Source of the DNA: Longimicrobiales bacterium
Lineage (GTDB): Bacteria > Gemmatimonadota > Gemmatimonadetes > Longimicrobiales > Gaopeijiaceae
Length of the DNA stretch: 64,000 bases
Direction: 5' to 3'
Assembly: GCA_951813395.1 (NCBI GenBank)
Contig: OX638356.1
Span: forward strand, 1,529,340-1,593,339
Position numbers and translations under genes: made by a program. The notes under the pieces were generated by a model. That model worked only from the letters and a program-made list of their open reading frames with translations. It made no database searches and had not been told where the DNA came from. Position 1 is the first letter of the stretch. Each line of letters opens with the position of its first letter. Of this stretch, positions 28,559 through 60,977 are shown one piece after another.

Positions 28559-30946
28559 GTGCACAAGGCGCCGGAGTTGCTCCGGCCGGGGCCGGCCGCT
28601 GTATTGTCCGCTTCCGCCGCTCCCGGTGCTCCCGCTGCGGACATCGTGCAGGACTACTGCGTCCGCTGTCATAACGAACGCCGGCTCATCGGCAACCTCA
28701 ATCTCGAGGCGTTCGATGCTGCGGATCCCGTCGCGAACCGCCCCGTTGCGGAAAAGATGATTCGCAAGCTGCGCGCGGGCATGATGCCGCCGCCGGGGGT
28801 CAGGCGGCCGCCCGAAGACGAGGTCGTGGCGTTCGTGACCGGCATGGAGGAGAGCATCGACGCAGCGGCCGCGCGGAACCCCAACCCGGGGGCCCGCACG
28901 TTCCAGCGCCTCAACCGCGCCGAGTACGAACGCGCCGTCCAGGACCTGCTGGGTCTGGAGATCGATGCGTCCGCGTACCTGCCCGGCGAGACGGTGAGCG
29001 CGGGCTTTGACAACATAGCCGACGTGCAGAACCTCTCCGCAACGCTGCTCGAGGCCTATCTCACCGCGGCGAGCGAGGTGAGCCGCCTCGCCCTGGGCGA
29101 CGCCAACGCGACCCCTGCCGAGGCGACCTACGAAGTGTCGCGATACGCCGAACAGCGCCAGCACGTTCCGGGCGCGCCCTTCGGCACGCGCGGCGGGATC
29201 TCGATCGTCCACAACTTCGTCGCCGACGGCGAGTACTATTTCCGACTGGCGTTTCAGCACGAGTCGACCGGCAATTTCTTCGGCCAGACCGCGCCCTTCG
29301 ACGAGGAGATCGAGGTATCGATCGATGGGGCCCGGGTTGCGCTGATTCCGCTGGACCGCTGGATGCACCGGCAGGATCCGCGCGGTGTCGAGGTCGTGAC
29401 CGATCCAGTCAGGGTTACGGCCGGACCGCACCGCGTGTCGGCCGCGTTCATCAAGGTCACGGAGGGGCCGGTCGAGGACCTGACCTCACCACACGAGTGG
29501 TCGCTGGCGGACAAGAAGATCGGGTACTCCTACGGGATCACCGGGGTTCCCCACCTTCGGGACCTGACCATCGGCGGGCCGTACAACGTGACGGGGGTCT
29601 CGCGCACCGCCGCCTGGCAGCGTGTCATGAGTTGCCTGCCCTCAACGCCCGCCGAGGAGCGAACCTGCGCCCGCGAAATCATCGACAGGCTGGGCACCCG
29701 CGCTTTCCGCCGGCCCGTGACGGAGGCCGAGGCTGACGGCCTCATGGGCCTCTTCGCCGAGGGCGTGGCCGAGGGCGGCTTCGACATCGGGGTCCGGACG
29801 GCGCTCCAGGGCATTCTGGCGAGCCCGGACTTCGTGTTCCGCTTCGAGGAGCCGGCTCCGGGCGGCGTCGATGCCAACGGGATGTATCGTCTTGGCGATG
29901 CCGCGCTGGCGTCGCGCCTGTCCTTCTTCCTGTGGGGACGCCTGCCCGACGAGGAGCTGATCGCGGCCGTGACGGCGGGCGATCTCTCGCGTCCGGAGGT
30001 ATTCGCACACCAGGTGGAGCGCATGCTGCGGGATCCTCGGGCCGAGGCGCTCGGGACCCGGTTCGCATCGCAGTGGCTTCGCCTCCAGGACCTGGACAAG
30101 GTCCACCCCGACGCATTGCGCTTCCCTGACTTCTACCAGCAGCTCGCCGAGGACATGCAGCGCGAGACCGAGATGTTCTTCAGCGCGCTGGTCCGCGAGG
30201 ACGGGACACTCGTCGATGTGCTCACGGCGGACTACTCCTACATGAACGAGCGGTTGGCGCGGCACTACGGAATCCCCGGCATCGCCGGCGAGCACTTCCG
30301 CCGCGTCGAATACCTGAATCCGCAGCGGCGCGGCGTTTTGGGCCACGGCAGCATCCTGACGCTCACTTCGCACGCCAACCGGACCTCGCCCGTGCTCCGG
30401 GGGAAGTGGGTGATGGAGGTGTTGCTGGGCACGCCGCCGCCGCCGCCGCCGCCCGACGTCCCCGAACTGGACGCGACCGCCGATGCGAGCGGCGGACGTT
30501 TCCTTACGGTGCGAGAGCGGCTCGAACAACACCGTGCGAACCCGACGTGCAACTCCTGCCACCGCTTCATCGACCCCATCGGGCTTGCGCTCGAGAACTT
30601 CGATGTCACCGGTGCGTGGCGGGTGCGGGACGCCGGCTCGCCGGTCGAGACACTCGGCGAACTGTATGATGGCACGCCGATCCACGGCCCGGACGATCTG
30701 CGTGCCGCACTGCTGCGGCGCCCGGAGTCCCTGGTCCGCACCTTTGCCGAGAACCTGATGGCCTACGCCCTCGGGCGCAGGATCGAGTACTACGACATGC
30801 CCGCGGTGCGGCGAGTGGCGCGCGCTGCGGCTGCGCAGGACTACCGTCTGTCGGCCTTCATCAAGGAAGTGGCGCAGAGCGATCCCTTCCGCATGGCGAA
30901 GTCCGCTGCCGTCGTCGAGGAGGCGATGGGCGGCGGCCGCAACTGA
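28559..30946 (+). CDS. DUF1592-family cytochrome-c-like protein (module A)
   Basis: A 795-residue protein of the planctomycete-type DUF1587-DUF1595-DUF1592-DUF1588-DUF1585 family. There is a c-type haem motif CVRCH at residues 34-38 and a second CNSCH at 664-668. Conserved blocks include RTFQRLNRAEYERAVQDLLGL (DUF1587), LASRLSFFLWGRLPDEEL (DUF1592), RRGVLGHGSILTLTSH (DUF1588) and IDPIGLALENFDVTGAWR plus FAENLMAYALGRRIEYYD (DUF1585). The GTG at 28559 is the first standard start, but the frame upstream encodes a signal-peptide-like run (PVPVLVLAVVLGLSLPSG), so translation may begin at CTG 28487 or ATT 28475. Function unknown; an exported haem protein is inferred. Confidence 0.9.
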   Translation: MHKAPELLRPGPAAVLSASAAPGAPAADIVQDYCVRCHNERRLIGNLNLEAFDAADPVANRPVAEKMIRKLRAGMMPPPGVRRPPEDEVVAFVTGMEESIDAAAARNPNPGARTFQRLNRAEYERAVQDLLGLEIDASAYLPGETVSAGFDNIADVQNLSATLLEAYLTAASEVSRLALGDANATPAEATYEVSRYAEQRQHVPGAPFGTRGGISIVHNFVADGEYYFRLAFQHESTGNFFGQTAPFDEEIEVSIDGARVALIPLDRWMHRQDPRGVEVVTDPVRVTAGPHRVSAAFIKVTEGPVEDLTSPHEWSLADKKIGYSYGITGVPHLRDLTIGGPYNVTGVSRTAAWQRVMSCLPSTPAEERTCAREIIDRLGTRAFRRPVTEAEADGLMGLFAEGVAEGGFDIGVRTALQGILASPDFVFRFEEPAPGGVDANGMYRLGDAALASRLSFFLWGRLPDEELIAAVTAGDLSRPEVFAHQVERMLRDPRAEALGTRFASQWLRLQDLDKVHPDALRFPDFYQQLAEDMQRETEMFFSALVREDGTLVDVLTADYSYMNERLARHYGIPGIAGEHFRRVEYLNPQRRGVLGHGSILTLTSHANRTSPVLRGKWVMEVLLGTPPPPPPPDVPELDATADASGGRFLTVRERLEQHRANPTCNSCHRFIDPIGLALENFDVTGAWRVRDAGSPVETLGELYDGTPIHGPDDLRAALLRRPESLVRTFAENLMAYALGRRIEYYDMPAVRRVARAAAAQDYRLSAFIKEVAQSDPFRMAKSAAVVEEAMGGGRN

Positions 30947-30960
30947 GGAGAGCGAACAGC

Positions 30961-32343
30961 ATGGAATACATCACGGGAGCAGCGATCCCCCGCCGTACCT
31001 TTCTGAGGGGTGTGGGGGCCACGATCTCGCTGCCGTTCCTCGACGCCATGATACCCGCAGGACGTGCGCTGGGAACCGCCGCGGACGGCCCGACGCGGCT
31101 CGTGGCGATCGAGATGGTCCACGGGGCGGCGGGGAGCAACGAATGGGGCCGCGCGCAGAACTACTGGTCTCCCGCGCAGACGGGCAGGGACTTCGACCTG
31201 ACCCCCAGCGCGCTGAGTCCGCTCGAGCCCTACCGCAAATACCTTACGATCGTCAGCGACACCGACATCGAGCCCGCCGAGGCAAAGAAGCCGAAGGAAA
31301 TCGGGGGCGATCACTTCCGCTCCAGCGCCACGTTCCTCACACAATCGCACCCGCGCCAGACCGAGGGCTCCGACATCTTCGTCGGCAAATCCCTCGACCA
31401 GATGTTCGCGCAGCGCTTCGGCCAGGACACGCCGATCCCGTCCATGCAGCTCTGTATCGAGAATGTGGACCAATCGGGCGGGTGCGCCTACGGCTACGCG
31501 TGCGTCTACACCGACACCATAAGCTGGGCGTCGCCCACCGATCCGCTTCCGATGGTGAGAGATCCACGGGTCGCCTTCGACCAACTCTTCGGGGTCGGAG
31601 GCAGTCCCGGGGAGCGGGCGGCGCGCCGCCGGACCAACAAGAGCATCCTCGACTTCATCACGGGCAGGGTGTCGCACCTCAAGCGTACGCTGGGGCCGGC
31701 GGATCTGGTTCGCCTCGACCGCTACCTGGATCATGTGCGCGAGCTGGAGCGCCGAATCCAGCGCGTGGAGGCGCAGAACACGAGCGGCGAGAGCCGGGAG
31801 TTGCCGGAAGCTCCGGCCGGTGTGCCCGACGACTTCGAGGAGCACGTCAAGTTGATGTTCGACCTGCAGGCGCTGGCCTTCGCGTCGGATGTGACACGGG
31901 TGTTCTCCTTCAAGATGGGACGCGATTCGTCCGCGCGGGTCTTCCCGGACAGCGGCGTCGACAGACCCTTCCATCCGGCATCGCACCACGGGGGCAACGA
32001 GGACAACATCACCGACTTTTCGAAGATCAACCGTTACCACATCGGCATGCTCCCGTACTTCCTGGAGCGGTTGGAGGACACGATGGAGGGGGATGCGCAC
32101 CTCCTCGACCGGACGATGATTGTCTACGGGTCCCCGATGGGAGACCCCAACATCCACAACCACAAACGCTGTCCGCTCTTCGTTGCCGGCGGGGCCAACG
32201 GGCAACTGGAAGGCAACCTCCACCTGCGCGCGGCTCCCGGCACGCCGATGGCCAACGTCATGCTGAGCCTGGCGCACAAGCTCGGGCTGGACGACACGAA
32301 GCGCTTCGGCAACAGTACGGGCGACTTTTCGCTGACGGTGTAG
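30961..32343 (+). CDS. DUF1552 protein with RR-type export signal (module A)
   Basis: A 460-residue DUF1552 protein. The N-terminus has a twin-arginine-type motif (PRRTFLRG) followed by a hydrophobic run (VGATISLPFLDAM). Conserved features include IEMVHGAAGSNEWG, IGGDHFRSSATFLTQSHP, CAYGYACVYTDTISW, SHHGG, INRYH and GSPMGDPNIHNHKRCPLF. Histidine-rich blocks of this kind suggest a metal site (inference). DUF1552 genes commonly follow DUF1592 genes; here the gap is 14 bases. The family is related to DUF1501 proteins, whose function is also unknown. Confidence 0.92.
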   Translation: MEYITGAAIPRRTFLRGVGATISLPFLDAMIPAGRALGTAADGPTRLVAIEMVHGAAGSNEWGRAQNYWSPAQTGRDFDLTPSALSPLEPYRKYLTIVSDTDIEPAEAKKPKEIGGDHFRSSATFLTQSHPRQTEGSDIFVGKSLDQMFAQRFGQDTPIPSMQLCIENVDQSGGCAYGYACVYTDTISWASPTDPLPMVRDPRVAFDQLFGVGGSPGERAARRRTNKSILDFITGRVSHLKRTLGPADLVRLDRYLDHVRELERRIQRVEAQNTSGESRELPEAPAGVPDDFEEHVKLMFDLQALAFASDVTRVFSFKMGRDSSARVFPDSGVDRPFHPASHHGGNEDNITDFSKINRYHIGMLPYFLERLEDTMEGDAHLLDRTMIVYGSPMGDPNIHNHKRCPLFVAGGANGQLEGNLHLRAAPGTPMANVMLSLAHKLGLDDTKRFGNSTGDFSLTV

Positions 32344-32347
32344 GCGC

Positions 32348-34168
32348 ATGACGATCCGCGTGAACGCCTGGCTTCCGTTGCTGCTTCTGGCAGCCCTGGC
32401 ACCGTGGGTGTCCGGCGGCGGTGCCCAGGACAACCGGTTCCGGGGCCAGCCAGCGCCGGCATTGAACACGCCGTCCGAATCGCCCGTCGCCGATGCGGCC
32501 ATGCGCGGCGATGCCGATGCCGTTCGGGACCTTCTGGCGGAAGGGGCCGATGTGAACGCCGCGCAGGGAGACGGGATGACCGCGCTCCACTGGTCGGCGC
32601 GCCAGGGGGATCCGTCGCTGGTCGGCACGCTGCTCGACGCCGGGGCCGACGTGCACTCGGGGACGCGCATCGGGCACTACACGGCGCTCCACATGGCGGG
32701 CGAGGTCGGTGCGGGCGAGGTCGTCGAGTTGCTGCTGGACGCGGGCGCCGACCCCATGGCGCGGGTCTCCGTGGCCGGGCATCCGACGGCGCTCCATTTT
32801 GCGGCCGCGTCGGGCAGTGCCCGAGCCGTGGAGGCGCTTCTGGGCGCGGGCGCCGACGTGAACGCCAGAGAGGAGTCCTGGGGGCAGACGCCACTGATGT
32901 TCGCCGCGTCGAAGGGGCGGACGGAAGCGGTGCGGTCACTCCTGGCGGCGGGGGCGGATGCGTCGATACACAGCCAGGTGATGGACGTCGTTGCCCGGGC
33001 GGTTGCGGACCGGATCGAGCGCGCCGAGCGCAACAGGCGCGTCGCCTCGGGTGAACCGTGGGGACCCGAGGTTGCCGAGGCGGTACGCCGCGATCAGGAG
33101 CAGGAATCTCGCCGGGAACGGGCCGAGGCGGCTTCGCTGGAAGAGTCCGAGACGCGCATGATCGAGGAGCCGGAACCGCTGTCCTACGGTGAGCTCGTCG
33201 GCGGACACGGCGGCCTCACCGCGCTTCTGCACGCTGCCCGGGAGGGCCACGCGGAGACCGCGTTCGCGCTCCTGGACGGCGGTGCCGACATCGATCGGAC
33301 AAGCGCCGGCGACGGAACCGGTCCCATGCTCATGGCGGCGATCAACGGACACTACGATCTGGCCATCCGCCTGCTGGAGCGCGGCGCGGATCCCAATCTT
33401 GCAAGCCACGCGGGGGCCACACCTCTGTTTGCCGCGCTCAACACGCACTGGGCGCCCAAATCGCGCTACCCGCAGCAGCACATCTACATGCAGCAGGACC
33501 ACACCTATCTGGAGGTGATGCGGAAGTTGCTGGACGCGGGCGCGGACCCGAACGCTCGGCTCGCCAAGCACCTCTGGTTCATGTCCTACAATTTCGACCT
33601 GCTCCAGATCGATGCGAAGGGTGCGACACCGTTCTGGCGCGCGGCCTACGCCCTCGACGTGGAAGCCATGAAGTTGCTCGTGGCCCACGGTGCCGATCCC
33701 TCGATTGCGACGGAAAAGGTTCCGTCGAGGCGCTACGGCCGCGGCGGAGACGATGCGCCCGATGCGTCCGGGTTGCCGCCCGTGCCCGTCGGCGGTCCCG
33801 CGGTTTACCCCATTCACGCGGCCGCGGGAGTCGGATACGGCCAGGGCTTCGCGGGCAACGCCCACCGTCATGTGCCCGACGCCTGGGTGCCGGCCGTCCG
33901 CTACCTGGTCGAGGAACTCGGGGCTGACGTGAACGCGCGCGATCACGAGGGATACAGCCCGCTCCACCATGCCGCCGCGCGTGGCGACAACGAGCTGATC
34001 CTGTACCTGGTGGAGCAGGGGGCGGACGTCACCTATGTCAGCAGGCGGGGGCAGACGACGGTGGATATGGCCAACGGCCCGGTGCAGCGGATCCAGCCGT
34101 TCCCGGAGACCATCGCTCTGCTGGAGAGTCTCGGCGCGGTGAACAACCACAACTGCGTTTCCTGTTGA
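32348..34168 (+). CDS. Secreted ankyrin-repeat protein (module A)
   Basis: A 606-residue protein with a signal peptide (VNAWLPLLLLAALAPWVSGGGAQ), about four N-terminal ankyrin repeats (GDGMTALHWSARQGDPSLVGTLLDAGADV and following), a charged coiled segment around residues 215-270, then more repeats and a conserved insert (GLPPVPVGGPAVYPIHAAAG). The last residues are NNHNCVSC, a motif shared with the module B protein. It begins four bases after the DUF1552 stop, so it is part of the same transcript. Ankyrin repeats bind proteins; the partner is unknown, with the neighbouring DUF1592 or DUF1552 proteins as obvious candidates. Confidence 0.93.
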   Translation: MTIRVNAWLPLLLLAALAPWVSGGGAQDNRFRGQPAPALNTPSESPVADAAMRGDADAVRDLLAEGADVNAAQGDGMTALHWSARQGDPSLVGTLLDAGADVHSGTRIGHYTALHMAGEVGAGEVVELLLDAGADPMARVSVAGHPTALHFAAASGSARAVEALLGAGADVNAREESWGQTPLMFAASKGRTEAVRSLLAAGADASIHSQVMDVVARAVADRIERAERNRRVASGEPWGPEVAEAVRRDQEQESRRERAEAASLEESETRMIEEPEPLSYGELVGGHGGLTALLHAAREGHAETAFALLDGGADIDRTSAGDGTGPMLMAAINGHYDLAIRLLERGADPNLASHAGATPLFAALNTHWAPKSRYPQQHIYMQQDHTYLEVMRKLLDAGADPNARLAKHLWFMSYNFDLLQIDAKGATPFWRAAYALDVEAMKLLVAHGADPSIATEKVPSRRYGRGGDDAPDASGLPPVPVGGPAVYPIHAAAGVGYGQGFAGNAHRHVPDAWVPAVRYLVEELGADVNARDHEGYSPLHHAAARGDNELILYLVEQGADVTYVSRRGQTTVDMANGPVQRIQPFPETIALLESLGAVNNHNCVSC

Positions 34169-34175
34169 AGCGGCC

Positions 34176-36716
34176 ATGCTGAAGCAAGCGGCCCCCGCAG
34201 CGGCCGGCATCTTGCTCGTCGGCCTCGGGATGTCGCTCGCGTCCGCGCCCGACCGCGGAGTCGCGGAATCCCCGGTTGCCTGGCGGCCGGCCCAACCTGC
34301 CTCCGAGACAGCCGGGCCGACCGACGGCGGACTCCGCGCCGACAACGAAGTCATCCGGCAGTACTGCGTCCGCTGTCACAACGACCGCCGCCTGCTGGGC
34401 AACATGTCGCTGGAGCCGTTCGACGCGACCGACGCGCCCGCCAACGGCGAACTCGCCGAAAAGATGATCCGCAAGCTGCGGGCAGGTCTGATGCCCCCGC
34501 CCGGGAATCGGCGCCCCGAAGAACCCGTTTTGATGGGCCTGATCGAATCGCTGGAGTCCCAGATGGACCGCGCGGCGGCGGACAACCCCAATCCCGGCCG
34601 GCGCACCTTCCAGCGCCTCAACCGGGCGGAATACGAGGCCTCGATCCGAGACCTTCTCGACCTGGAGATCGACGCGGGCACCTACCTTCCGCTCGACACC
34701 AAGAGTGCCAACTTCGACAACATCGCGGATGCGCAGCTCCTCTCCGCAACGCTGACGGACGGCTACCTGCGGGCGGCCGCCGAGATCAGCCGGCTGGCGA
34801 TCGGCGACCCCCACATCACCCCCAGCGAGTCGACCTATCGCGTCTCGCGGTGGGACTCGCAGAGCGAGCGGGTGGAAGGCGCACCGTACGGCACCCGGGG
34901 CGGGGTGTCGGCCCTGCACAACTTCCCCGCGGACGGCCACTACGCCTTCCGCGTGTCCTTCCACCACGAGACGACCGGCGCTCTCGTGGGCAACGGGCGC
35001 AATGCGCTCCACACCCGCGAGGGCGAGCCGGAACTCCTGGACATCTCGATCGACGGTGTGTCGGTCGCGGTCCTGGAAGTGAACCGGTGGATGCACACCT
35101 CGGATCCGGATGGCGTGAACATCCGTTCCGAGCGCGTTTTCGTGCGCGCGGGCCCGCGTCAGGTGTCCGCGGCGTTCATCCGGCGCTCCGAAGGCCCGCT
35201 CCAGGACCTCATCTCGCCGCACGACTGGTCGCTGGCGAGCACCAGCATCGCGGGGAGCTACGGCTTCACCGTGCTTCCGCACCTGCGGGACCTGGCGATC
35301 GGCGGCCCGTACGAGCCCGAGGGCGTGTCCGACACGCCGAGCCGCGCGGCGGTGTTCACGTGCCGGCCGGAGCCCGGGACCGAAGCGGGGGCGACCGAGG
35401 CCGCGGCGAGAGGCTGCGCGCGCGGGATCGTCGCCCGTCTGGGCACCCGCGCGTACCGGCGCCCATTGACCGAGGCGAACATGGCCGCGCTGATGCGGCT
35501 CTACGATGCCGGCGCGGCGCTCGAGGGCTTCGAGGGCGGGGTGCGCATGGCACTGGAGGGGATCCTCGCCAGCCCGCACTTCATCTTCCGCATCGAGGAG
35601 CCGACGGCGGCGCATGGGCAGGCCGGCGGGGCGGACGCGGGGCCGGCGGGAACCTACCGCATCGGCGACCACGATCTGGCCTCGCGGCTCTCCTTCTTCC
35701 TGTGGGGATCCGGGCCCGACGACGAACTGATGGCGGTGGCGCGCGAGGGCGGGCTGTCGGAACGGACCGTGCTGGAGCGCCAGGTCCGCCGCATGCTGCG
35801 CGACCCGCGTTCCACGGCGCTCTCGACGCGCTTCGCCGGACAGTGGCTGCGGCTGCAGGACCTGGAGAAGATCCAGCCCGACGTGCGCGTCAACCCCGAT
35901 TTCGACGAGCCCCTCAAGCGCGCGATGCTGAAGGAGACCGAGCTCTTCTTCGACAACCTGGTCCGCGAAGACGCCTCGGTCATGGACCTCTACAGCGCCG
36001 ACTACACGTTCGTGAACGCGCGGCTGGCCCGCCACTACGGCATTCCCGATGTGGCCGGCGACCGCTTCCGGCGCGTCCGCTACCTGAACGACGAGCGGCG
36101 GGGCCTGCTGGGCCACGGCAGCGTCCTCACGCTGACCTCGCACGCAGGCCGAACATCGCCCGTGCTCAGGGGCAAGTGGGTGATGGAAGTGTTCCTGGGG
36201 ACGCCGCCCCCACCTCCACCCCCCGACGTGCCCGAGCTGGAGGAGGAAGCGGTGGAGGACGGCCGTTTCCTGACGGTGCGGGAGCGGCTCGAGATGCACC
36301 GGGCCAACCCGACCTGCAACTCCTGCCACCGCATGATCGACCCCATCGGCCTGGCGCTCGAGAACTTCGACGTTACCGGCGCGTGGCGCATCAGGGATCA
36401 GGGCGTTGAGATCGACGCGGCCAGCGACTTCTACGACGGCACGCCCATCTCGACGCCCTCGGAGCTGCGCACGGCGCTGCTGAAGCGGCCCGAACCGCTG
36501 CTGCGCACGTTCACCGAGAACCTCATGGCATATGCGCTCGGACGCCGCCTGGAGTATTATGACATGCCGGCCGTGCGCCGGATCACCCGGGCGGCGGCCG
36601 AAGAGGACTACCGGGTATCCGCGTTCATCGTCGGGGTGGCGACCAGCGACGCCTTCCTCCTGAAGGCCGCGCCCACGGTCGTCGACGACGAAGCGCCGAA
36701 CGGAAACGGAGGCTGA
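34176..36716 (+). CDS. DUF1592-family cytochrome-c-like protein (module B)
   Basis: An 846-residue paralogue of the module A protein with a normal ATG and signal peptide (AAAGILLVGLGMSLASA). Haem motifs are CVRCH at residues 64-68 and CNSCH at 714-718. Domain order is the same, with FQRLNRAEYEASIRDLLDLEID, DLASRLSFFLWGSGPDDEL, RRGLLGHGSVLTLTSHAGRTSPVLRGKWVMEVFLG and NLMAYALGRRLEYYDMPAVRRI. It starts seven bases after the module A ankyrin gene, so modules A and B may form one transcript. Likely exported; function unknown. Confidence 0.92.
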   Translation: MLKQAAPAAAGILLVGLGMSLASAPDRGVAESPVAWRPAQPASETAGPTDGGLRADNEVIRQYCVRCHNDRRLLGNMSLEPFDATDAPANGELAEKMIRKLRAGLMPPPGNRRPEEPVLMGLIESLESQMDRAAADNPNPGRRTFQRLNRAEYEASIRDLLDLEIDAGTYLPLDTKSANFDNIADAQLLSATLTDGYLRAAAEISRLAIGDPHITPSESTYRVSRWDSQSERVEGAPYGTRGGVSALHNFPADGHYAFRVSFHHETTGALVGNGRNALHTREGEPELLDISIDGVSVAVLEVNRWMHTSDPDGVNIRSERVFVRAGPRQVSAAFIRRSEGPLQDLISPHDWSLASTSIAGSYGFTVLPHLRDLAIGGPYEPEGVSDTPSRAAVFTCRPEPGTEAGATEAAARGCARGIVARLGTRAYRRPLTEANMAALMRLYDAGAALEGFEGGVRMALEGILASPHFIFRIEEPTAAHGQAGGADAGPAGTYRIGDHDLASRLSFFLWGSGPDDELMAVAREGGLSERTVLERQVRRMLRDPRSTALSTRFAGQWLRLQDLEKIQPDVRVNPDFDEPLKRAMLKETELFFDNLVREDASVMDLYSADYTFVNARLARHYGIPDVAGDRFRRVRYLNDERRGLLGHGSVLTLTSHAGRTSPVLRGKWVMEVFLGTPPPPPPPDVPELEEEAVEDGRFLTVRERLEMHRANPTCNSCHRMIDPIGLALENFDVTGAWRIRDQGVEIDAASDFYDGTPISTPSELRTALLKRPEPLLRTFTENLMAYALGRRLEYYDMPAVRRITRAAAEEDYRVSAFIVGVATSDAFLLKAAPTVVDDEAPNGNGG

Positions 36717-36721
36717 CCAGG

Positions 36722-38116
36722 ATGCATCTGATCACCGGACGTCACCTCCCGCGCCGCACCTTCCTGCGCGGCCTGGGCGCAAGTGTCGCGCTGCCGTTCC
36801 TGGACGCGATGGTCCCGGCCCGGGAGCGGTGGGCGGTCACGCAGGCGCGCACCGCGCTGGACCGCACCCGTCTCGTCGCGATCGAGATGGTGCACGGCGC
36901 AGCCGGAAGCAACGCGTGGGGGGCGACACAGCACCTCTGGTCGCCGCCGGAGACCGGCCGCGGCTTCGATTTCGGGCCCAGCGTGCTGAGTGCGCTGGAG
37001 CCCTACCGGGACTACCTCACGATCATCAGCGACACCGACGTGGAGGGCGCCGAAGCCACCAAGCCCAAGGAGATCGGGGGCGACCACTTCCGCTCCAGCG
37101 CGACCTTCCTCACCCAGTCCCACCCCAAGCAGACCGAGAGCTCGGACGTCTGGGTGGGCACGTCGCTTGACCAGCTGTACGCCCAGCGCTTCGGCCAGGA
37201 CACCCCCATCCCCTCCATGCAGCTGTGCATCGAGAATGTGGACCAGGCGGGCGGGTGCGCGTACGGATACGCGTGCGTCTACACCGACACCATCTCCTGG
37301 GCGGCGCCCGATCAGCCGCTCCCGATGGTCCGCGATCCACGGGTCGCCTTCGACCAGCTCTTCGGCGCCGGCGGGACTCCCGAGGCGCGCGCGGCCAGGC
37401 GCAGGGCCAGTGCCAGCATCCTCGACTTCATCGTTGGCGAGGTGAACGCGCTGAAACGCGAACTGGATCCGGTCGACGGCCGCCGGGTCGACCGCTACCT
37501 CAGCGACATCCGCGAGATCGAGCGGCGGATCGCCCGGGTCGTGGCCCGCAACGAAAGCGGCGAGGAGCGCGAACTGCCCGGTGCGCCCGCAGGGGTGCCC
37601 GACTCCTTCGACGAGCACGCGAAGCTGATGTTCGACCTGCAGGCGCTCGCCTTCCAGGCGGATGTCACCGGCGTCTTCTCCTTCAAGATGGGCCGCGACG
37701 CGTCCAGCCGGGTCTACCCGGAGAGCGGTGTGGACAAGGGCTTCCACCCGTCGTCACATCACGGCGGCAGGCCCGACAACGTGCTCGAGTTCGCGGAGAT
37801 CAACCGGTACCACGTCGGGCTTGTCCCGTACTTCCTGGACCGCCTCGCGAGCATTCAGGAGGGCGACGGCAGCCTCCTGGACAAGACCATGGTCGTCTAC
37901 GGCTCGCCGATGGGCGATTCCAACGTGCACAACCACAAGCGCTGCCCCCTCTTCGTGGTCGGCGGCGCGAACGGCCGTCTCGACGGCAACCTGCACTTGC
38001 GCGCGGCCCCGGGAACCCCGATGGCCAACGTGATGCTCAGTCTCATGCACAAGCTGGGCATGGACGACGCGGCGAGCTTCGGCAACAGCACGGGCGCCTT
38101 CCCGCTGTCGGTGTGA
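36722..38116 (+). CDS. DUF1552 protein with RR-type export signal (module B)
   Basis: A 464-residue DUF1552 protein very similar to the module A copy: both carry GGDHFRSSATFLTQSHP, QDTPIPSMQLCIENVDQ, GGCAYGYACVYTDTISWA, PLPMVRDPRVAFDQLFG and HNHKRCPLFVxGGANG. The export signal is PRRTFLRGLGASVALPFLDAM. It lies five bases after the DUF1592 stop. The high similarity of the A and B copies points to a fairly recent tandem duplication of the whole module. Confidence 0.92.
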   Translation: MHLITGRHLPRRTFLRGLGASVALPFLDAMVPARERWAVTQARTALDRTRLVAIEMVHGAAGSNAWGATQHLWSPPETGRGFDFGPSVLSALEPYRDYLTIISDTDVEGAEATKPKEIGGDHFRSSATFLTQSHPKQTESSDVWVGTSLDQLYAQRFGQDTPIPSMQLCIENVDQAGGCAYGYACVYTDTISWAAPDQPLPMVRDPRVAFDQLFGAGGTPEARAARRRASASILDFIVGEVNALKRELDPVDGRRVDRYLSDIREIERRIARVVARNESGEERELPGAPAGVPDSFDEHAKLMFDLQALAFQADVTGVFSFKMGRDASSRVYPESGVDKGFHPSSHHGGRPDNVLEFAEINRYHVGLVPYFLDRLASIQEGDGSLLDKTMVVYGSPMGDSNVHNHKRCPLFVVGGANGRLDGNLHLRAAPGTPMANVMLSLMHKLGMDDAASFGNSTGAFPLSV

Positions 38117-38126
38117 GGAGGACGGC

Positions 38127-40070
38127 ATGAGCATCGGTGCGGCGCGGTTTCCTGGTTGGACGAAGCCCGGCGCAGCCCGCCCGGCAGCGTCCGCCGCGCT
38201 TGCCTGCGGGCAACCGGCCCCGGCGGCGCGTGCGAAAAGGCTCGCGCCTCTCCTTCTGGGAGCCCTGATCGCCTGGCATCCCGCCCCGCCCGGCGGCATC
38301 CTCCCGTCCGCCGCTTCGGCCCAGATGCCCGCGGGGTCCGCCCCGCGCGCCACGCCCGACTCTCCCTTGGCCGACGCGGCCATGCGGAACGACGCGGAAG
38401 CCGTGCGGGCCCTGCTGGCGAGCGGTGCCGACGTGAACATCCCCCGGGGTGACGGCATGACCGGCCTACACTGGGCGGCGCTGCACGGCAACGCCGAGAT
38501 CGCCGGGCTGCTCATCGGAGCGGGAGCGGATCCCGGAGCGGCTACCCGGCTGGGCGCTCATACGCCGCTGCACGTCGCCGCCAAGGAGGGTCACGGCGAG
38601 ATCGTCGCGATCCTGGCCGCTGCGGGCGCCGACGTGGCGGCGGTGACCGAAACCGGGGCCACGCCGCTCCACTTCGCCGCGGCTGCGGGGGACATGCGCG
38701 CCTTGACGGCGCTGCTCGACCACGGCGCCGCGGTCGATCCCATGGAGCCCGAGTGGGGACAGACCCCCCTGATGTTCGCCTCGGCCATGGGGCGCGCGAA
38801 GGCGGTGACGGCGCTGCTCGAAGCCGGGGCCGACCCGACGATCACCGCGCACGTCATGGACCTGGTCGAGCGCGATATCCTGGACCGCGCCTCCGAGCGG
38901 CGGCGGCGGACCGAGATCGCCGCGATGCGCGGGGGCACGGACGCCCAGAGCTATCCGGTCGAATCGGGTGTCGCCGGGCGCTCGTCGCAGACCTCGGCCG
39001 CCCCGGTCACCTCGCGGGAGGAGCAGGCCAGGGAAGCCGCCCAGGAGGCGCTCGAGGCGCGCCGCCAGACCGGCGAGCCCATTCCGCTGAACTACGCGGA
39101 TCTGGTCGGCAAGCACGGCGGCCTGTCGGCGATCCACCTCGCGGCGCGGGAAGGCCACGCGGCGACGGTCATGGCGCTGCTGGACGGGGGCGTCGACATC
39201 GACCTTCCCAGCGCGGCCGACGGCACCACGCCGATGCTCATGGCGGCGATCAACGGCTACTTCGATCTGGTGGCCGAACTCCTGGCGCTGGGGGCCGACC
39301 CCAATCTGGCCAGCGACGCGGGGGCGACACCTCTCTACGCCGTCCTCAACGTGCACTGGGCGCCCAAGGCCCGGCACCCTCAACCGCTGGAGCACGAGCA
39401 GCAGGAGATCGGCTACCTGGAACTGATGCGCGCCCTCCTCGAAGCGGGTGCGGACGTGAACGCCCGCCTCGAGCGCACGCTCTGGTTCACCACCTACAAC
39501 CGGGACCTGCTCGGCGTGGACCGTACGGGAGCGACGGCGTTCTGGCGGGCGGTCCACGCGACCGACGTACCTGCAATGAAGCTCCTCCTTGAGTACGGCG
39601 CGGACCCCGACCTGCCCACGATCAAGGTTCCGCAACGCAGTTTCGGGCCGCGGGACGACACCGATCACTCCGGACTGCCGCCCGTTCCCATCGGCGGCCC
39701 CGCGGTCTACCCCGTCCACGCAGCGGCGGGGGTCGGCTACGGTCAGGGCTTCGCCGGCAACTCCCACCGCCACGCCCCGGACGGCTGGATGCCCACGATG
39801 CGGTTTCTGGTCGAGGAACTCGGCGCCGACGTGAACGCCCGCGACCTGAACGCGTACACGCCGCTGCACCACGCCGCCGCCCGCGGCGACAACGAGATGA
39901 TCCTGTATCTCGTGGACAGAGGCGCCGACGTCACCGCCGTGGCGCGCAACGGACGGACCACGGTGGACATGGCCAACGGTCCCGTGCAGCGGATCCAGCC
40001 GTTCGTGGAGACGGTGGCGCTGCTGGAGCGCCTGGGGGCGAAGAACAACCACCGCTGCGTGAGCTGCTAG
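38127..40070 (+). CDS. Secreted ankyrin-repeat protein (module B)
   Basis: A 647-residue paralogue of the module A ankyrin protein. A long N-terminal segment contains a hydrophobic signal (APLLLGALIAWHPAPPGGILPSAASAQ) rather late, after about 35 residues, so an internal start is possible. Ankyrin repeats resume with DAAMRNDAEAVRALLASGADVN. The middle coiled stretch (EEQAREAAQEALEARRQTGEPI) and the insert LPPVPIGGPAVYPVHAAAGVGYGQGFAGN match module A. The protein ends in NNHRCVSC. It is ten bases downstream of the DUF1552 gene. Binding partner unknown. Confidence 0.92.
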   Translation: MSIGAARFPGWTKPGAARPAASAALACGQPAPAARAKRLAPLLLGALIAWHPAPPGGILPSAASAQMPAGSAPRATPDSPLADAAMRNDAEAVRALLASGADVNIPRGDGMTGLHWAALHGNAEIAGLLIGAGADPGAATRLGAHTPLHVAAKEGHGEIVAILAAAGADVAAVTETGATPLHFAAAAGDMRALTALLDHGAAVDPMEPEWGQTPLMFASAMGRAKAVTALLEAGADPTITAHVMDLVERDILDRASERRRRTEIAAMRGGTDAQSYPVESGVAGRSSQTSAAPVTSREEQAREAAQEALEARRQTGEPIPLNYADLVGKHGGLSAIHLAAREGHAATVMALLDGGVDIDLPSAADGTTPMLMAAINGYFDLVAELLALGADPNLASDAGATPLYAVLNVHWAPKARHPQPLEHEQQEIGYLELMRALLEAGADVNARLERTLWFTTYNRDLLGVDRTGATAFWRAVHATDVPAMKLLLEYGADPDLPTIKVPQRSFGPRDDTDHSGLPPVPIGGPAVYPVHAAAGVGYGQGFAGNSHRHAPDGWMPTMRFLVEELGADVNARDLNAYTPLHHAAARGDNEMILYLVDRGADVTAVARNGRTTVDMANGPVQRIQPFVETVALLERLGAKNNHRCVSC

Positions 40071-53501: not shown

Positions 53502-56240
53502 ATGGCGCTGAATAGGCCGCAGAAAAGAGGCCTGTCGTTGTCGCGCCGGTCCTGTTTGGCTATGGGCCGCAGCCTACTCCCTGGAGAGTGGACGGTGGGG
53601 TTGGCGGCTGCCGGGCTGGTTCTCCTCTCGTGTTCGACACTCGAGTCACCCTCGACGACCGCCGAAATGGGGCCAGCGCGAGAGGCCGGCATCCAGATTG
53701 CGCAGGCCCGGGACGCGCACGCCGGTCCCATCGCCACAGGAGCCGAAGCGCAGGCGATGGTCGAACAGTACTGTGTGCGTTGTCACAACGATGTTCGCCG
53801 TACGGCGCTCCTTGAACTGGACCAGTACGACGCCACGAACCCGGCCACCCACCCCGAGATCTGGGAGAAGGTGGCCACCAAGTTGCGTGCGGGGGCCATG
53901 CCGCCGGGAGGTGTGCGTCGTCCCGATGAAGAGACCTACGACGCGGTGGCCGGCTGGCTCGAATCGGAGTTGGACGCCGCTTGGGCGAAAAACCCGAACG
54001 TCGGTCGCATCAACGCGGTGCACCGGCTCAACCGTACCGAGTACAACAACGCCGTGAACGACCTGCTTGGGCTGGACGTTGATGTCATTGACGCGTTGCC
54101 CGGCGACGAGACGATGGGCGGCGGATTCGACAATGTGGCCGATGCCCTGAGCATCTCGCCGCTCCACATGGAGCGTTACCTGTCGGTCGCCCGGACGGTC
54201 ACCCGACTGGCGGTCGGACTGCCGCCGGCGGGGGCGGGTTCGTCTCGCTACGTTGCGGACGACGCGAGACGCCAGAACGTCCGGATGAGTGACGATTTGC
54301 CCCTGGGCTCCCGTGGAGGCATGGCCATCCGCCATATCTTCCCGGTGGACGGCGAGTACCGGATCCGGGTACGTCTTCAGAAGAACTATGCGGGCTACGC
54401 TCGCGGGCTCGGATGGGAGCAGGAACTCGACGTCCGGATCGACGGAGAATTGGTGGACAGGCTCGTCTTCGGCGGCGAGGGCCGGCAACATCGGCCGGTG
54501 GCCAACAGCTACGCGGGAGCCGGCGGGGGCCCCGGCTGGCCGGGATCTCCCGAGTGGGAGAACTACGCCAAATTCGGTGCCGAAGCCCCTCTGGTGACGA
54601 CCGTGCAAGTCGAGGCTGGAAGCCGGGTCGTCGGCCTCTCGTTCACCAAGGATCTCGCCTACGGGGAGGAGTACCTGCTTCCGCAGGCCCCAGTCCAGAC
54701 GAGGAGCCAGATCGACTACTTCAACAACGAGTACTTCGGCATGTCGGGCGTGATCGGGATGGAGATCGACGGCCCATTCGGCGAGACCGACGTCGCCGAT
54801 AACACGCGGAGCAGGGAGGAGATCTTTGTCTGCGAGCCGCAGTCCGTCTCCGGCGAGGAAGGCTGCGCCACGGAGATCCTGACGCGAATGGCACGGCGCG
54901 CCTACCGCCGGCCTGTCACCCATGACGATATGGAGATCCTGCTCCGCTTCTTCCGCATGGGTCGGGATGAGGGAGGGAGCTTCGACCACGGTATCCAGTT
55001 GGCACTGGAGCGGCTCCTCATCGACCCGGACTTCCTCCTGCGTGTCTATCGCGAGCCGCGCGTGCGCGCACCGGATCAGGCGCCGGAGTTTGCCGAGGGC
55101 GCCCCCTATGCGCTGAGCGATCTGGAGATAGCGTCACGGCTGTCTTTCTTCCTCTGGAGCACCGTCCCCGACGAGGCCCTGCTCAGGCAAGCCGAGCAAG
55201 GTCGGCTTGCCGATCCCACGGTGCGGAGCGAGCAAGCCCGGCGAATGCTGGAAGGCTCCCGGGCCCGCGAGACTCTCGTGGAGGACTTCGCCAGCCAGTG
55301 GCTGAAGCTCCGCGAACTGGACGACCGGCTTCTCCAGGACGACATCTACATCGAGTACGGCCACAACCTCCGCGAGGCCATGGAAGAGGAGACCAAGCTC
55401 TTCTTCGAGTACGGCATTCGTGAGGACAGGAGCGTGGTCGAACTCCTCGACGCCGACTATACCTTTGTCAACGAGCGACTTGCCGACCACTACAACCTCC
55501 CCGGCGTGGCCGGGAGCCACTTCCGCCGGGTCCAGCTTCCCGACCTCGAGAAAAGGGGCGGTCTGCTGGGGCACGCCAGCATCCTCACGGTGACGTCCTA
55601 TCCGGAGCGGACCACGCCGGTGCTTCGGGGCAAATGGATCCTCGAGACAATCCTGGGTCGGCATGTGCCGCCGCCCCCGCCCGACCTCGACACGAGCCTT
55701 GAGATCCCTGAGGACCAGGGGACGGTGCGGAAACCCACGATCCGGGAGCGGCTCGCAAAGCATCGCACGGAGCCGACCTGCGCCAGCTGCCACCGGACGA
55801 TCGATCCGCTGGGTTTCTCCCTTGAGGCCTATGACGCCGCGGGGGGTCTTCGGCTGATCGACGAACTCGGAAATCCCGTGGACGACACCGGCCTGTGGCC
55901 CGAGACCGAACAGGAGATCCAGGGATTGGCGGGTCTCCGGAATCTGATATTGGAGAACAAGGAGCAGTTCGTTCGAACCGTGACGACAAAGCTCATGCAA
56001 TACGCCCTCGGGCGCGATGTCGAGTACTATGATCAACCGACAATCCGGAAGATCATTCGCGATGCAGAGGCAGACAATTACGCCTGGTCGTCGATCATTC
56101 TGGGGATTGTGGAGAGCCCACAGTTCCTCATGCGGATGCGTGCGGTAGCGACCCCGACAGCGGAGCAGTCAGCGTTCTCGCGCATGGAGGCTGGACGCAT
56201 GGAGCCTGGAGAGGACAACAATGGACTTTATCACTGGTAG
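53502..56240 (+). CDS. DUF1592-family cytochrome-c-like lipoprotein (module C)
   Basis: A 912-residue protein from ATG 53502; ATG 53490 and 53562 are alternatives. A lipobox-like LLSC (Cys44) ends the signal. Haem motifs are CVRCH at 91-95 and CASCH at 760-764. Domain blocks follow the family: HRLNRTEYNNAVNDLLGLDVD, EIASRLSFFLWSTVPDEAL, RGGLLGHASILTVTSYPERTTPVLRGKW, LMQYALGRDVEYYDQPT. It has a longer middle section than modules A and B, including a glycine-rich stretch (YAGAGGGPGWPGSP). It is the first gene of a tightly packed operon, with DUF1552 overlapping by 20 bases. Confidence 0.92.
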   Translation: MALNRPQKRGLSLSRRSCLAMGRSLLPGEWTVGLAAAGLVLLSCSTLESPSTTAEMGPAREAGIQIAQARDAHAGPIATGAEAQAMVEQYCVRCHNDVRRTALLELDQYDATNPATHPEIWEKVATKLRAGAMPPGGVRRPDEETYDAVAGWLESELDAAWAKNPNVGRINAVHRLNRTEYNNAVNDLLGLDVDVIDALPGDETMGGGFDNVADALSISPLHMERYLSVARTVTRLAVGLPPAGAGSSRYVADDARRQNVRMSDDLPLGSRGGMAIRHIFPVDGEYRIRVRLQKNYAGYARGLGWEQELDVRIDGELVDRLVFGGEGRQHRPVANSYAGAGGGPGWPGSPEWENYAKFGAEAPLVTTVQVEAGSRVVGLSFTKDLAYGEEYLLPQAPVQTRSQIDYFNNEYFGMSGVIGMEIDGPFGETDVADNTRSREEIFVCEPQSVSGEEGCATEILTRMARRAYRRPVTHDDMEILLRFFRMGRDEGGSFDHGIQLALERLLIDPDFLLRVYREPRVRAPDQAPEFAEGAPYALSDLEIASRLSFFLWSTVPDEALLRQAEQGRLADPTVRSEQARRMLEGSRARETLVEDFASQWLKLRELDDRLLQDDIYIEYGHNLREAMEEETKLFFEYGIREDRSVVELLDADYTFVNERLADHYNLPGVAGSHFRRVQLPDLEKRGGLLGHASILTVTSYPERTTPVLRGKWILETILGRHVPPPPPDLDTSLEIPEDQGTVRKPTIRERLAKHRTEPTCASCHRTIDPLGFSLEAYDAAGGLRLIDELGNPVDDTGLWPETEQEIQGLAGLRNLILENKEQFVRTVTTKLMQYALGRDVEYYDQPTIRKIIRDAEADNYAWSSIILGIVESPQFLMRMRAVATPTAEQSAFSRMEAGRMEPGEDNNGLYHW

Positions 56241-57579
56241 GCACATCTCGCGGCGCACTGTCCTTCGGGGCGCTGGCGCGGCGCTGATGCTGCCATTCCT
56301 GGAAGCGATGACGCCAGCCCGTTTGACTGCGGGCAGCGGCCCCAGGCGCAAGTCTCCTCACAGATTCCTGGCGTACTACACGCCGAACGGTCAGGCCATG
56401 CCGCACTGGACGCCGACTGGCGAGGGCCGTGACTTCGCGCTCTCCGACATCCTGGGTCCGCTGGAGCCGTTCAGGGAGAGGATCATCATCCCGTCGGGGC
56501 TGAGCGCGTCGTGGAACTTCAACCACGCCGGTGGGCCCACCAGCTTTCTCACCGGCATGGTGGGGAGGTCGCTGGGCGACGCAGAGGCGGTGGACAACAC
56601 CGACATCATCGCGGCGGAGTCGATCGATCAGATGCTGGCGCGTGCGTGGGGGACGGAGACGCAGCTGGGCTCGCTGGAGCTTTCCCTGGACGGTCCGCCG
56701 AACGCCGGCACCTGTGCCATCCTGAACTGCGCCTACACGCATACCATCTCCTGGCGGAGCCCCACGCAGCCTCTCCCGATGGAAAACCATCCGCGAACGG
56801 TCTTCGAGCGGCTCTTCGGGGACACGGGGACGACTGAGCGTGAACCGCGGGAGCGGCGCCTGCAACAACAGAAGAGCCTGCTGGACTCCGTGACCGACAA
56901 GCTGCGGGCGCTGAGGCGCGAGCTGGGCCCGCAGGACCAGCGCAACGTGGAGCAGTACACCGAAGCGGTGCGAGACGTGGAACGGCGGATCCAGGTGGCC
57001 GAGCAGCAACTGGACGTCGATCTGCCGAACATGGAGCAGCCGCAGGGGATTCCGGAGACTCTGGAGGATCATCTGGAGCTGCTGCTGGACATGCAGATCC
57101 TGGCCTATCAGGCGGACATCACAAGGGTGTCGACGATGATGATCGGGCGCGAAGTGAACGCACGGCCGTATCCGCAAATCGGTGTTCCGGAAGCGTGGCA
57201 TCCGCTGTCGCACCACGGCAACCGTCCAGACATCGTCAAGTATGTGTCGAAGATCAATCGGTATCATGTGGAGCTCTTCACCCGTCACCTCACGAAGCTG
57301 AGTCAGACTCCCGACGGCGACGGTTCGCTGCTGGATTCGATCACCGGGCTGTACGGGTCGGGGATCTCCAACAGCCAGCGCCACGCAGGCGACAATATTC
57401 CGCTGGTCATCGTGGGTGGTGGCAACGGCAAACTGAACGGTGGGCAGCACATCCGGTACGAGGGCGGACCGACGCACGCGAACCTGTTGGCGACCCTCAT
57501 GGACAAGATGGACATGCCGATGGACAAGATCGGCGGCAGCACAGGCCGGCTACCGATCGACACCCTCGGCGAGCTCTGA
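56221..57579 (+). CDS. DUF1552 protein with RR-type export signal (module C)
   Basis: A 452-residue DUF1552 protein with the signal SRRTVLRGAGAALMLPFLEAM. It is clearly diverged from the A and B copies: CAILNCAYTHTISWRSPTQPLPM replaces the A/B version, the GGDHFRSSATFLTQSHP block becomes NHAGGPTSFLTGM, and the HNHKRCPLF region reads QRHAGDNIPLVIVGGGNG. The histidine SHHGN block is retained. It overlaps the DUF1592 stop by 20 bases, so the two are translationally coupled. Function unknown. Confidence 0.92.
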   Translation: MDFITGRHISRRTVLRGAGAALMLPFLEAMTPARLTAGSGPRRKSPHRFLAYYTPNGQAMPHWTPTGEGRDFALSDILGPLEPFRERIIIPSGLSASWNFNHAGGPTSFLTGMVGRSLGDAEAVDNTDIIAAESIDQMLARAWGTETQLGSLELSLDGPPNAGTCAILNCAYTHTISWRSPTQPLPMENHPRTVFERLFGDTGTTEREPRERRLQQQKSLLDSVTDKLRALRRELGPQDQRNVEQYTEAVRDVERRIQVAEQQLDVDLPNMEQPQGIPETLEDHLELLLDMQILAYQADITRVSTMMIGREVNARPYPQIGVPEAWHPLSHHGNRPDIVKYVSKINRYHVELFTRHLTKLSQTPDGDGSLLDSITGLYGSGISNSQRHAGDNIPLVIVGGGNGKLNGGQHIRYEGGPTHANLLATLMDKMDMPMDKIGGSTGRLPIDTLGEL

Positions 57580-58801: not shown

Positions 58802-59454
58802 GCAGGCGACCCCATCCGATGTTGATGGCCATGGCCGCGGCGGGTGTCCTGACCGCGTCGGCTGGCGCCCAGGAGGAAGCTCACGCCCACATTCTGAGGG
58901 TAGTGAATCCCGAGGCCACGGCGGTGGAGGAGCTGGGCTTCCTCAGACAGGCTGTAGGCGAAGCGGGCACCGCGGCAGAGTACGCATCTTTTGCCGCCGG
59001 TGGCCAGGAGCGACCCGGTGACCTCTGGGCAATGAAGACCCACGCGCGGAACATCCTCCACGCTCTGGATCCCACGCGGGTGGAGAACGGCCCGGGCCTG
59101 GGGTTTGGGCTATTCGAGGCTGCCCGGAAAACCATCGAGCACCTCGAGATGGCGGCCGATGCTTCCGACGCAACGGACAACGTCCGGACCCACGCGAGGC
59201 ACGTGGTGAATTGTGTTCACAACACCCTTGAGCGTGCCCACAGGATGCTGGGGATCGTCGAGCAAATCCTGGCCACGGAGTCGGCCGAGGAAGCGGACCA
59301 ACTTTCCGATCGGCTCAACACACTGGGCTTCCAGCTTAGAAACGGTGTAGACGCCAACGGCGACGGGAGGGTCACGTGGCACGAGGGAGAGTGTGGCCTG
59401 TACATTGCCCAGGAACACATGCAGCTGCTGATGAGGGGAGAAGGAATCGGATGA
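58798..59454 (+). CDS. Secreted helical protein of unknown function (module C)
   Basis: A 218-residue protein with a TTG start at 58798 overlapping the upstream stop, and a signal peptide (LMAMAAAGVLTASAGAQ). The mature part is mainly helical with many conserved-looking histidines (KTHARNILHALD, NVRTHARHVVNCVHNTLERAH) and an EF-hand-like loop DANGDGRVTWHEGE near the C-terminus that may bind calcium. I do not recognise the family. The regular histidines could also coordinate metal or haem (inference). It is coupled to the ankyrin gene by an ATGA overlap. Confidence 0.75.
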   Translation: MSRRPHPMLMAMAAAGVLTASAGAQEEAHAHILRVVNPEATAVEELGFLRQAVGEAGTAAEYASFAAGGQERPGDLWAMKTHARNILHALDPTRVENGPGLGFGLFEAARKTIEHLEMAADASDATDNVRTHARHVVNCVHNTLERAHRMLGIVEQILATESAEEADQLSDRLNTLGFQLRNGVDANGDGRVTWHEGECGLYIAQEHMQLLMRGEGIG

Positions 59455-60977
59455 AGGCGATCTGGAGGGCGATGCTGCCCGGTGTGCTCGTAGCCTTTCT
59501 CGCGGCGGCGGTAGCTGATCCGCCTCCGATCGTGGACGCCGCCAGGAATGGCGATGAGGCGGCGTTGCGCTCTCTGGTGGAGCAGGGGGCGAACGTGAAC
59601 GCCACGGCTGGCGATGGCTCGACGGCGCTCCTGTGGGCGAGCCACCGGGACCTGCCGGAAAGCGTGGATCTACTGGTCCGAGCTGGGGCCCAGGTAAACC
59701 GGGCGAACGACCTCGGTGCCACGCCTCTGTGGGCGGCGAGCGAAAACGGCAGTGTGGCGGTGGTGGAACTGCTGCTGGACGCGGATGCGGATCCGAACCT
59801 CGCACTACGCCACGGCGAGACGCCCCTCATGGCCGCCGCACGATCTGGCGGTGCGCGGGCGGCGGAGCTGCTTCTGGAGCATGGAGCGGATCCAAACGCG
59901 ACCGGTCCACGGGGCCAGACCGCGCTCATGTGGGCGGTGCTCGACCTCTCGTCGGACGTGGTGAAGGTGCTGGTCGACCACGGGGCGGACGTGCATGCCC
60001 GGACGGCGGCAACAATGGAGTTGAAGGCGCACGAACCCCACACCCACATCCAGAACCAGGGTTGGTTCGAGCACGGTGGCAACACCGCCCTGATGTTCGC
60101 TGCCAGGGTCGGCGACGCGGAATCGGCAAGGCATCTCGTGGCCGCCGGCGCCGACGTAAACGACAAGTCGGCTTTCGGCGTCAGCGCGCTGGCCATGACG
60201 GCCTACTCCAACTTCCGCACTTTGGTGGCCGAGCCGGCCTACTCTTCGGGTGGCCCGTATACGATGGGTGCGAGGGAGGGCTTCCGTCCCGGCCAGTTCG
60301 GCGAAGTCGTGGAGTTCCTCCTGGAGGCTGGTGCGGACCCGAACGGGGGATCCGACAAGTTCACGGCACTCCACGCAGCGATTCTGCGCCATGACCAGCG
60401 CTCGGTGGACCTGCTTCTGCAGCACGGCGCCGACGTCACTATCCCGCTCGCAACCTTCACGCCGCACCAGCGCGGCTCAAACCAGGCTTTCTACTTTCAC
60501 AACGGCTGGATCGGCGCCCGTCCGGTGTGGCTCGCCGCCCGCTTCGGGACGGCTGGAATCCTGCGCAGTCTGCTCGAACACGGCGCCGACCCGCGTTTCG
60601 TGCACCGCAGCGAGTACTTCAACGGTGTCGACGGCGCCCTGACTTCGGGAATCTTCGCAGCACGACAGCTGGAGCTCACTACGACGCTCATGGCAGCCCT
60701 CGGCATGAGCAATGCCGGAAGGCCGTGGGTCTATCAGCACGTATGCACGCCGGAGCACGAGCAGGCGACGCTCGATAAGGTGCGGTTGCTTGTGGACGCA
60801 GGCGCCGACCTCGCCATGGAGACCGCCGACGGCTTCACGGCGCTCGACCAGGCCAGGGCGTTGCAGTACGAGTCGGTCGTCGAAGTTCTGCTCGCTGCCG
60901 GGGCGCCCGGAGGAGTAGGTCTGGACGAGGCGGAGTACGACTTCCTGAACCGGCGGACGCAGGGAGGCTGCGGGTAG
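59451..60977 (+). CDS. Secreted ankyrin-repeat protein (module C)
   Basis: A 508-residue protein with a signal peptide (MLPGVLVAFLAAAVA) and about eight ankyrin repeats beginning IVDAARNGDEAALRSLVEQGANVNA. It shares the family layout of modules A and B but has its own insert (TPHQRGSNQAFYFHNGWIGARPVWLAARFG) and ends RRTQGGCG in place of the NNHxCVSC tail. The start at 59451 overlaps the stop of the preceding gene (ATGA). It is the last gene of module C, 36 bases before the convergent ggt gene. Binding partner unknown. Confidence 0.92.
   Translation: MKAIWRAMLPGVLVAFLAAAVADPPPIVDAARNGDEAALRSLVEQGANVNATAGDGSTALLWASHRDLPESVDLLVRAGAQVNRANDLGATPLWAASENGSVAVVELLLDADADPNLALRHGETPLMAAARSGGARAAELLLEHGADPNATGPRGQTALMWAVLDLSSDVVKVLVDHGADVHARTAATMELKAHEPHTHIQNQGWFEHGGNTALMFAARVGDAESARHLVAAGADVNDKSAFGVSALAMTAYSNFRTLVAEPAYSSGGPYTMGAREGFRPGQFGEVVEFLLEAGADPNGGSDKFTALHAAILRHDQRSVDLLLQHGADVTIPLATFTPHQRGSNQAFYFHNGWIGARPVWLAARFGTAGILRSLLEHGADPRFVHRSEYFNGVDGALTSGIFAARQLELTTTLMAALGMSNAGRPWVYQHVCTPEHEQATLDKVRLLVDAGADLAMETADGFTALDQARALQYESVVEVLLAAGAPGGVGLDEAEYDFLNRRTQGGCG

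Follow-up and report, generated by a model that had tools for sequence, protein, structure and literature searches.

We analysed a window of 64,000 nucleotides from a Longimicrobiales genome (assembly GCA_951813395.1, contig OX638356.1, positions 1,529,340 to 1,593,339), in which two ankyrin proteins, A and B, end on a pair of cysteines that selection appears to have maintained. In each case, the ankyrin is the third gene of a DUF1592 - DUF1552 - ankyrin unit. The termini read ...LGAVNNHNCVSC for A and ...LGAKNNHRCVSC for B, right at the stop, which bears out an earlier note on this DNA that placed NNHNCVSC and NNHRCVSC exactly there. All 155 distinct relatives that we counted have such a pair after their last ankyrin helix, within a fold that has few other cysteines. 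We see perhaps an even chance that the pair forms a disulfide-closed C-terminal clasp, or hook, that probably helps to contact the DUF1592 and DUF1552 proteins.

Two cysteines are the conserved part of the tail

We surveyed genomes of Gemmatimonadota and Acidobacteriota using a profile of the C-terminal 130 residues (14 rows). Matches were obtained in 111 of the 298 Gemmatimonadota genomes and, at 1e-10, in 47 of the 396 acidobacterial genomes, where the weaker ones are more distant ankyrins. We retained the distinct complete C-terminal domains with profile scores of at least 80 bits that passed a coverage filter. The pair is spaced as C-x2-C (type I) in 138 of these 155 relatives, as C-x4-C in 6 (NSHNCRSSDCV and similar), and as C-x11-C in 11 (CLHTHFLDTGDFC, CANTFVREAGHYC and similar). 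The type I proteins usually stop at the second cysteine (124 of 138); 11 have one residue beyond it, and one each has 4, 7, and 10. The exact CVSC end was found in 46 of 46 complete relatives from 31 loci, which is beyond chance; this count leaves out one unrelated weak match (locus L022, 5908-9480).

Conservation was computed over the 130 columns for 44 representatives less than 75% identical. The first cysteine is present in all 44 and ranks first among the columns; shifts in spacing place the second tenth when fixed columns are counted. Relative entropy averages 2.73 bits over the last ten columns and 2.59 over the preceding 120. The sequence ahead of the tail is thus not the drifting one that had been proposed: the tail average is barely above background, and the two cysteines alone stand out. 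The last eight columns without the cysteines average just 2.20 bits, which makes NNHx and VS ordinary. Nor is NNHxCVSC a fixed motif. What is fixed is the pair, at spacings of 2, 4, or 11; the histidine is kept as HxCxxC in 107 of the 138 type I tails, and the residues between the cysteines vary widely. The codons vary silently: cysteine is TGC or TGT (87 and 37, respectively, for the last cysteine of 124 tails), serine uses five codons, and all three stop codons occur. This silent variation and the differing stop codons led us to reject a constraint at the DNA level.

Orthologues of A are 79-88% identical to it, B-type proteins of Gemmatimonadota 58-64%, and an acidobacterial one 50%. Given these ranges, the split between A and B predates these species. 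The comparison supports A and B as old paralogues whose tail was maintained by selection. The source genome has seven DUF1552 genes and six of these units, and five of the six unit ankyrins have HxCxxC at or near their end (NNHNCVSC, NNHRCVSC, NNHKCLSC, NNHQCRSCGGSD, and SNSHRCLIC); the sixth carries ...LECLHTHFLDTGDFCTGAG.... Tail-bearing ankyrins reach 13 copies per genome. Strong expansion of the units is seen in four genomes (G045, G077, G085, and G098), where ankyrin and DUF1552 each number 11 to 12 copies. A plasmid search for the ankyrin returned a single record, a Priestia ankyrin (56% of the query).

We also observed other kinds of ankyrin ends. Three acidobacterial loci (L149, L182, and L186) encode ankyrins ending in EIPCPxxC, a C-x3-C spacing; they have no upstream DUF1552 and a DUF1592-like match downstream on the same strand. 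A Cys-less ankyrin family (L180, L181, L183-L185, and L187-L189), mostly with a tail of the GADTxLGIPGTVQERLRDV kind, has no DUF1552 upstream on the same strand.

Few other cysteines and signs of export

Among 139 distinct full-length type I proteins, the ankyrin fold contains no other cysteine in 96, one in 7, two in 35, and four in 1, and the frequency of cysteine in the body is 0.10%. Body pairs include C-x2-C (14) and C-x4-C (20). In four loci (L024, L027, L028, and L029), an optional second C-x2-C lies in CSGCLGNYADLVG, within the loop that precedes the latter half of the stack; other proteins have a C-x4-C in the body. A hydrophobic N-terminal segment was found in 92 of the 96 type I proteins with enough upstream frame, compared with 6 of 240 internal control windows. 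This strongly suggests that these ankyrins are exported by Sec and agrees with their earlier description as secreted. A lipobox-like pattern, searched as a simple pattern, occurs in only 1 of the 96, which does not point to lipoproteins. Judged from the sequences, a Cys-poor fold with paired cysteines and signs of export is the picture expected of disulfide pairs in exported proteins.

Haem attachment by the tail as in c-type CxxCH motifs was excluded: A and B have no histidine after the second cysteine, the point at which 124 of the 138 type I tails stop. Prenyl-type CaaX anchoring was considered and dropped, as we know of no such system in the bacterial periplasm.

Association with DUF1552 and DUF1592

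A DUF1552 gene lies directly upstream on the same strand of every C-x2-C ankyrin with more than 3.2 kb of upstream DNA (86 of 86, A and B included), and a DUF1592 match is found on the same strand within the stretch in 85 of them. The upstream DUF1552 is also present for the C-x4-C (3 of 3) and C-x11-C (1 of 1) ankyrins, plus further such loci (L200 has too little upstream DNA). Of 121 genomes searched, 45 encode DUF1552; the ankyrin profile matches all 45, with equal copy numbers in 31 (Pearson r 0.97). A sample of DUF1552 loci drawn blind to the tail gave a CxxC-tailed ankyrin after DUF1552 in 19 of 20 Gemmatimonadota cases, with none at L220.

We sorted 157 distinct DUF1552 sequences by their ankyrin, which separated 132 from Cys-tail units and 25 others. 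Diagnostic differences between the two sets fall in 21 columns. All 132 carry Phe, Trp, or Ile at position 337, where 21 of the 25 others have the motif histidine; position 404 is cysteine in 119 of the 132 and in 1 of the 25. Cys165 is present with 107 of 118 type I tails, 6 of 6 type II, 4 of 8 type III, and 0 of 1 type IV, with 0 of 9 Cys-less ankyrins, and in 2 of 15 loci with no ankyrin. By the DUF1552 tree, two changes suffice for the tail trait, which amounts to about one origin, and the DUF1552 changes are best taken as context, not proof. Co-evolution of Cys165 and Cys404 with the tail, although conspicuous in the raw counts, found no support in independent pairs (8 pairs for Cys165, going the same way in 1.0 on average; 6 pairs for Cys404, with 0.8) and was rejected.

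Predicted structures

The model of A (21 sequences, mean predicted local distance difference test score, pLDDT, 82) is an ankyrin solenoid; among solved structures, ankyrins and designed ankyrins come closest to it (Z about 29). No secondary structure is predicted past the helix at 548-556, and the final eight-residue block has a pLDDT of 60; both features fit a free end. For the DUF1552 partner of A, the model (16 sequences, a modest pLDDT of 67) matches sulfatases and ENPP first (Z 13.8, root-mean-square deviation 4.4 over 263 residues), yet with about 10% identity. This alignment, the best for the model, suggests that the partner may belong to the alkaline-phosphatase superfamily. As to the docking on a haem partner that had been put forward, the closest genomic link of the tailed ankyrins is to DUF1552, whose model resembles this superfamily and not a haem protein. 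Neither DUF1552 nor DUF1592 had a match by sequence among solved structures.

A proposed disulfide hook and its alternatives

The apparently exported ankyrin forms a three-gene unit with the DUF1592 cytochrome-like protein and the DUF1552 protein. In our preferred reading, a disulfide between the tail cysteines, 2, 4, or 11 residues apart, would close a small loop in the oxidising periplasm. The C-terminus, otherwise flexible, would thereby become a rigid hook, and this hook would be part of the hold of the ankyrin scaffold on its partners. We favour a local disulfide because it would account for the kept cysteines, the free spacing, the few other cysteines, the signs of export, the free C-terminus, and the fixed partner. 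Docking is proposed because a scaffold whose hook and gene neighbours are both fixed would naturally use the hook in this way, with DUF1552 and DUF1592 as the candidate partners. Binding of a metal accounts for most of the same facts. Among the uses put forward earlier, a disulfide is thus the best reading and a metal site is possible, and for anchoring nothing was found. Selection on just two cysteines, tied to one DUF1552 subfamily, would provide a precise handle on the role of these cytochrome-like gene families, and the tail would be an easy annotation marker of the three-protein unit.

Several observations weigh against the disulfide hook. C-x2-C leaves little room for a disulfide, and the cysteines may instead be thiols or hold a metal. 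Seven of the 139 type I proteins have an odd number of cysteines, and a partial copy in a short frame at L198, outside the 155 by the coverage filter, has the first cysteine only. The rows of the search profile were all Cys-tailed, which favours finding Cys-tailed relatives. The changes in the tail and in DUF1552 are indistinguishable from one shared ancestral event. A Cys-less ankyrin follows DUF1552 in 9 cases, and in the acidobacterial part of the tail-blind sample none of the 16 usable loci has the tail: a Cys-less ankyrin is encoded on the same strand in 4 and an ankyrin on the opposite strand in 1, and 11 have no ankyrin (4 more loci, on cut contigs, stand outside the 16). By profile score, most of these acidobacterial proteins belong to another DUF1552 subfamily. 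The 9 Cys-less ankyrins and the 16 loci imply that the tail is dispensable for some DUF1552 partners.

The HxCxxC of most type I tails (107 of 138), the resemblance of the DUF1552 model to metal-dependent alkaline-phosphatase-like enzymes, and the replacement of His337 with the gain of Cys404 in the DUF1552 proteins of Cys-tail triads would all suit metal binding by the tail pair, on its own or together with DUF1552, the ankyrin then delivering or completing a metal site. However, the tail histidine is not fixed, the cysteine spacing shifts to 4 and 11, Cys404 is missing in 6 of 6 type II triads, and the DUF1552 changes represent one clade event, not independent tests; we regard metal binding as rather doubtful. 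We find it very unlikely that the two tail thiols act as mobile soft ligands that enter a DUF1552 metal site rebuilt after the loss of the histidine and the gain of a cysteine beside the second His motif, although, if true, a scaffold protein would complete the active centre of its neighbour.

CxxC is also the classic redox spacing, and the tail might keep the CxxCH motifs of DUF1592 reduced for haem attachment, as a dedicated helper. The same-strand DUF1592-type match in 85 of 86 stretches and the two CxxCH motifs in each of the two triad DUF1592 proteins are consistent with this role, but a redox CxxC keeps its spacing. The C-x2-C fixed in thioredoxin-like or CcmH-like proteins is found in A and B and not throughout the family, where 17 of 155 members have 4 (6) or 11 (11) residues between the cysteines, and these residues vary widely. 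A role of the tail as a CxxC oxidoreductase seems unlikely from the sequences, and the dedicated helper is quite unlikely. The location of the pair right after the last helix would fit a structural cap only, tying the C-terminal end of the ankyrin stack, and so would the cysteine couple of ankyrin protein C of the window (-77 and -2), which is shared by its 3 closest relatives and of which neither member is present in 5 of 5 distant ones. We judge the cap unlikely: a pair within four residues would be unable to staple far-apart parts of the stack, and the predicted tail has low confidence and no secondary structure. Finally, A and B are tandem neighbours, and unrelated tails in relatives elsewhere would, according to the earlier note, have made the common tail a mere trace of recent module duplication. 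Relatives outside the locus share the tail, which occurs in both phyla, also in paralogues at a distance from the locus, and has accumulated silent codon changes; we reject this explanation as scarcely credible.

Comparison with known systems

In Pseudomonas, the periplasmic ankyrin AnkB is encoded beside the catalase KatB. As a parallel to A and B, it combines an envelope location of its ankyrin repeats with a haem enzyme as neighbour, but here no catalase is a direct neighbour. In the neighbourhoods of the planctomycete-specific cytochrome genes (PSCyt/PSD), a DUF1592-type protein lies beside a family of unknown function, as in our units; the section of PMC5615132 on these genes, according to which nothing is known of PSCyt functions, names no ankyrin partner. 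The nearest functional parallel we found is Cj1386 of Campylobacter jejuni, an ankyrin protein tied, as A and B may be, to a partner possibly carrying haem. According to the review PMC11442138, it traffics haem to the catalase KatA, binds it via Tyr57, and is listed as cytoplasmic. In contrast, A and B are apparently exported, have a tail cysteine pair, and have DUF1552 and DUF1592, not a catalase, as direct neighbours. We found no published account of the Cys-pair tail in the open-access literature that we searched on these gene families and ankyrins.

Genes of the window and ankyrin protein C

Several stretches of A and B are above the Pfam cut-off for ankyrin repeats. In NCBIfam, the ankyrins gave only matches far below the cut-off and DUF1552 and DUF1592 gave none.

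Table 1. Coordinates of the units and of ankyrin protein C in the window.
Feature	Position	Strand	Basis and remarks
Ankyrin protein A, 606 aa	32348..34168	+	Pfam ankyrin; Sec-type N-terminus; two tail Cys the only ones after the start; third gene of triad A
Ankyrin protein B, 647 aa	38127..40070	+	Pfam ankyrin; two tail Cys the only ones in the ankyrin fold; third gene of triad B
Tail of A (NNHNCVSC and stop)	34142..34168	+	Sequence; conservation across relatives
Tail of B (NNHRCVSC and stop)	40044..40070	+	Sequence; conservation across relatives
DUF1552 (PF07586) partner of A	30961..32343	+	Pfam, E 6.4e-84; RRTFLRG Tat-like N-terminus
DUF1552 partner of B	36722..38116	+	PF07586 search
DUF1592-type protein, first gene of triad A	28559..30946	+	Pfam; two CxxCH motifs
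DUF1592-type protein, first gene of triad B	34176..36716	+	Pfam; two CxxCH motifs
Ankyrin protein C, another family	59376..60977	+	One tail Cys (-2), one internal Cys (-77)

Protein C ends in ...NRRTQGGCG, confirming the RRTQGGCG end reported for the third protein. It has few relatives: at 1e-60, 150 genomes yielded matches in 9, the source genome among them. The joint presence or absence of its two cysteines suggests a separate disulfide, again with cysteines in pairs. A third DUF1552 (56221-57579), about 1.8 kb from ankyrin C, has neither the Cys165 nor the Cys404 present in the window's other two. Relatives of protein C in four genomes (G115, G084, G052, and G117) also adjoin a DUF1552 match.

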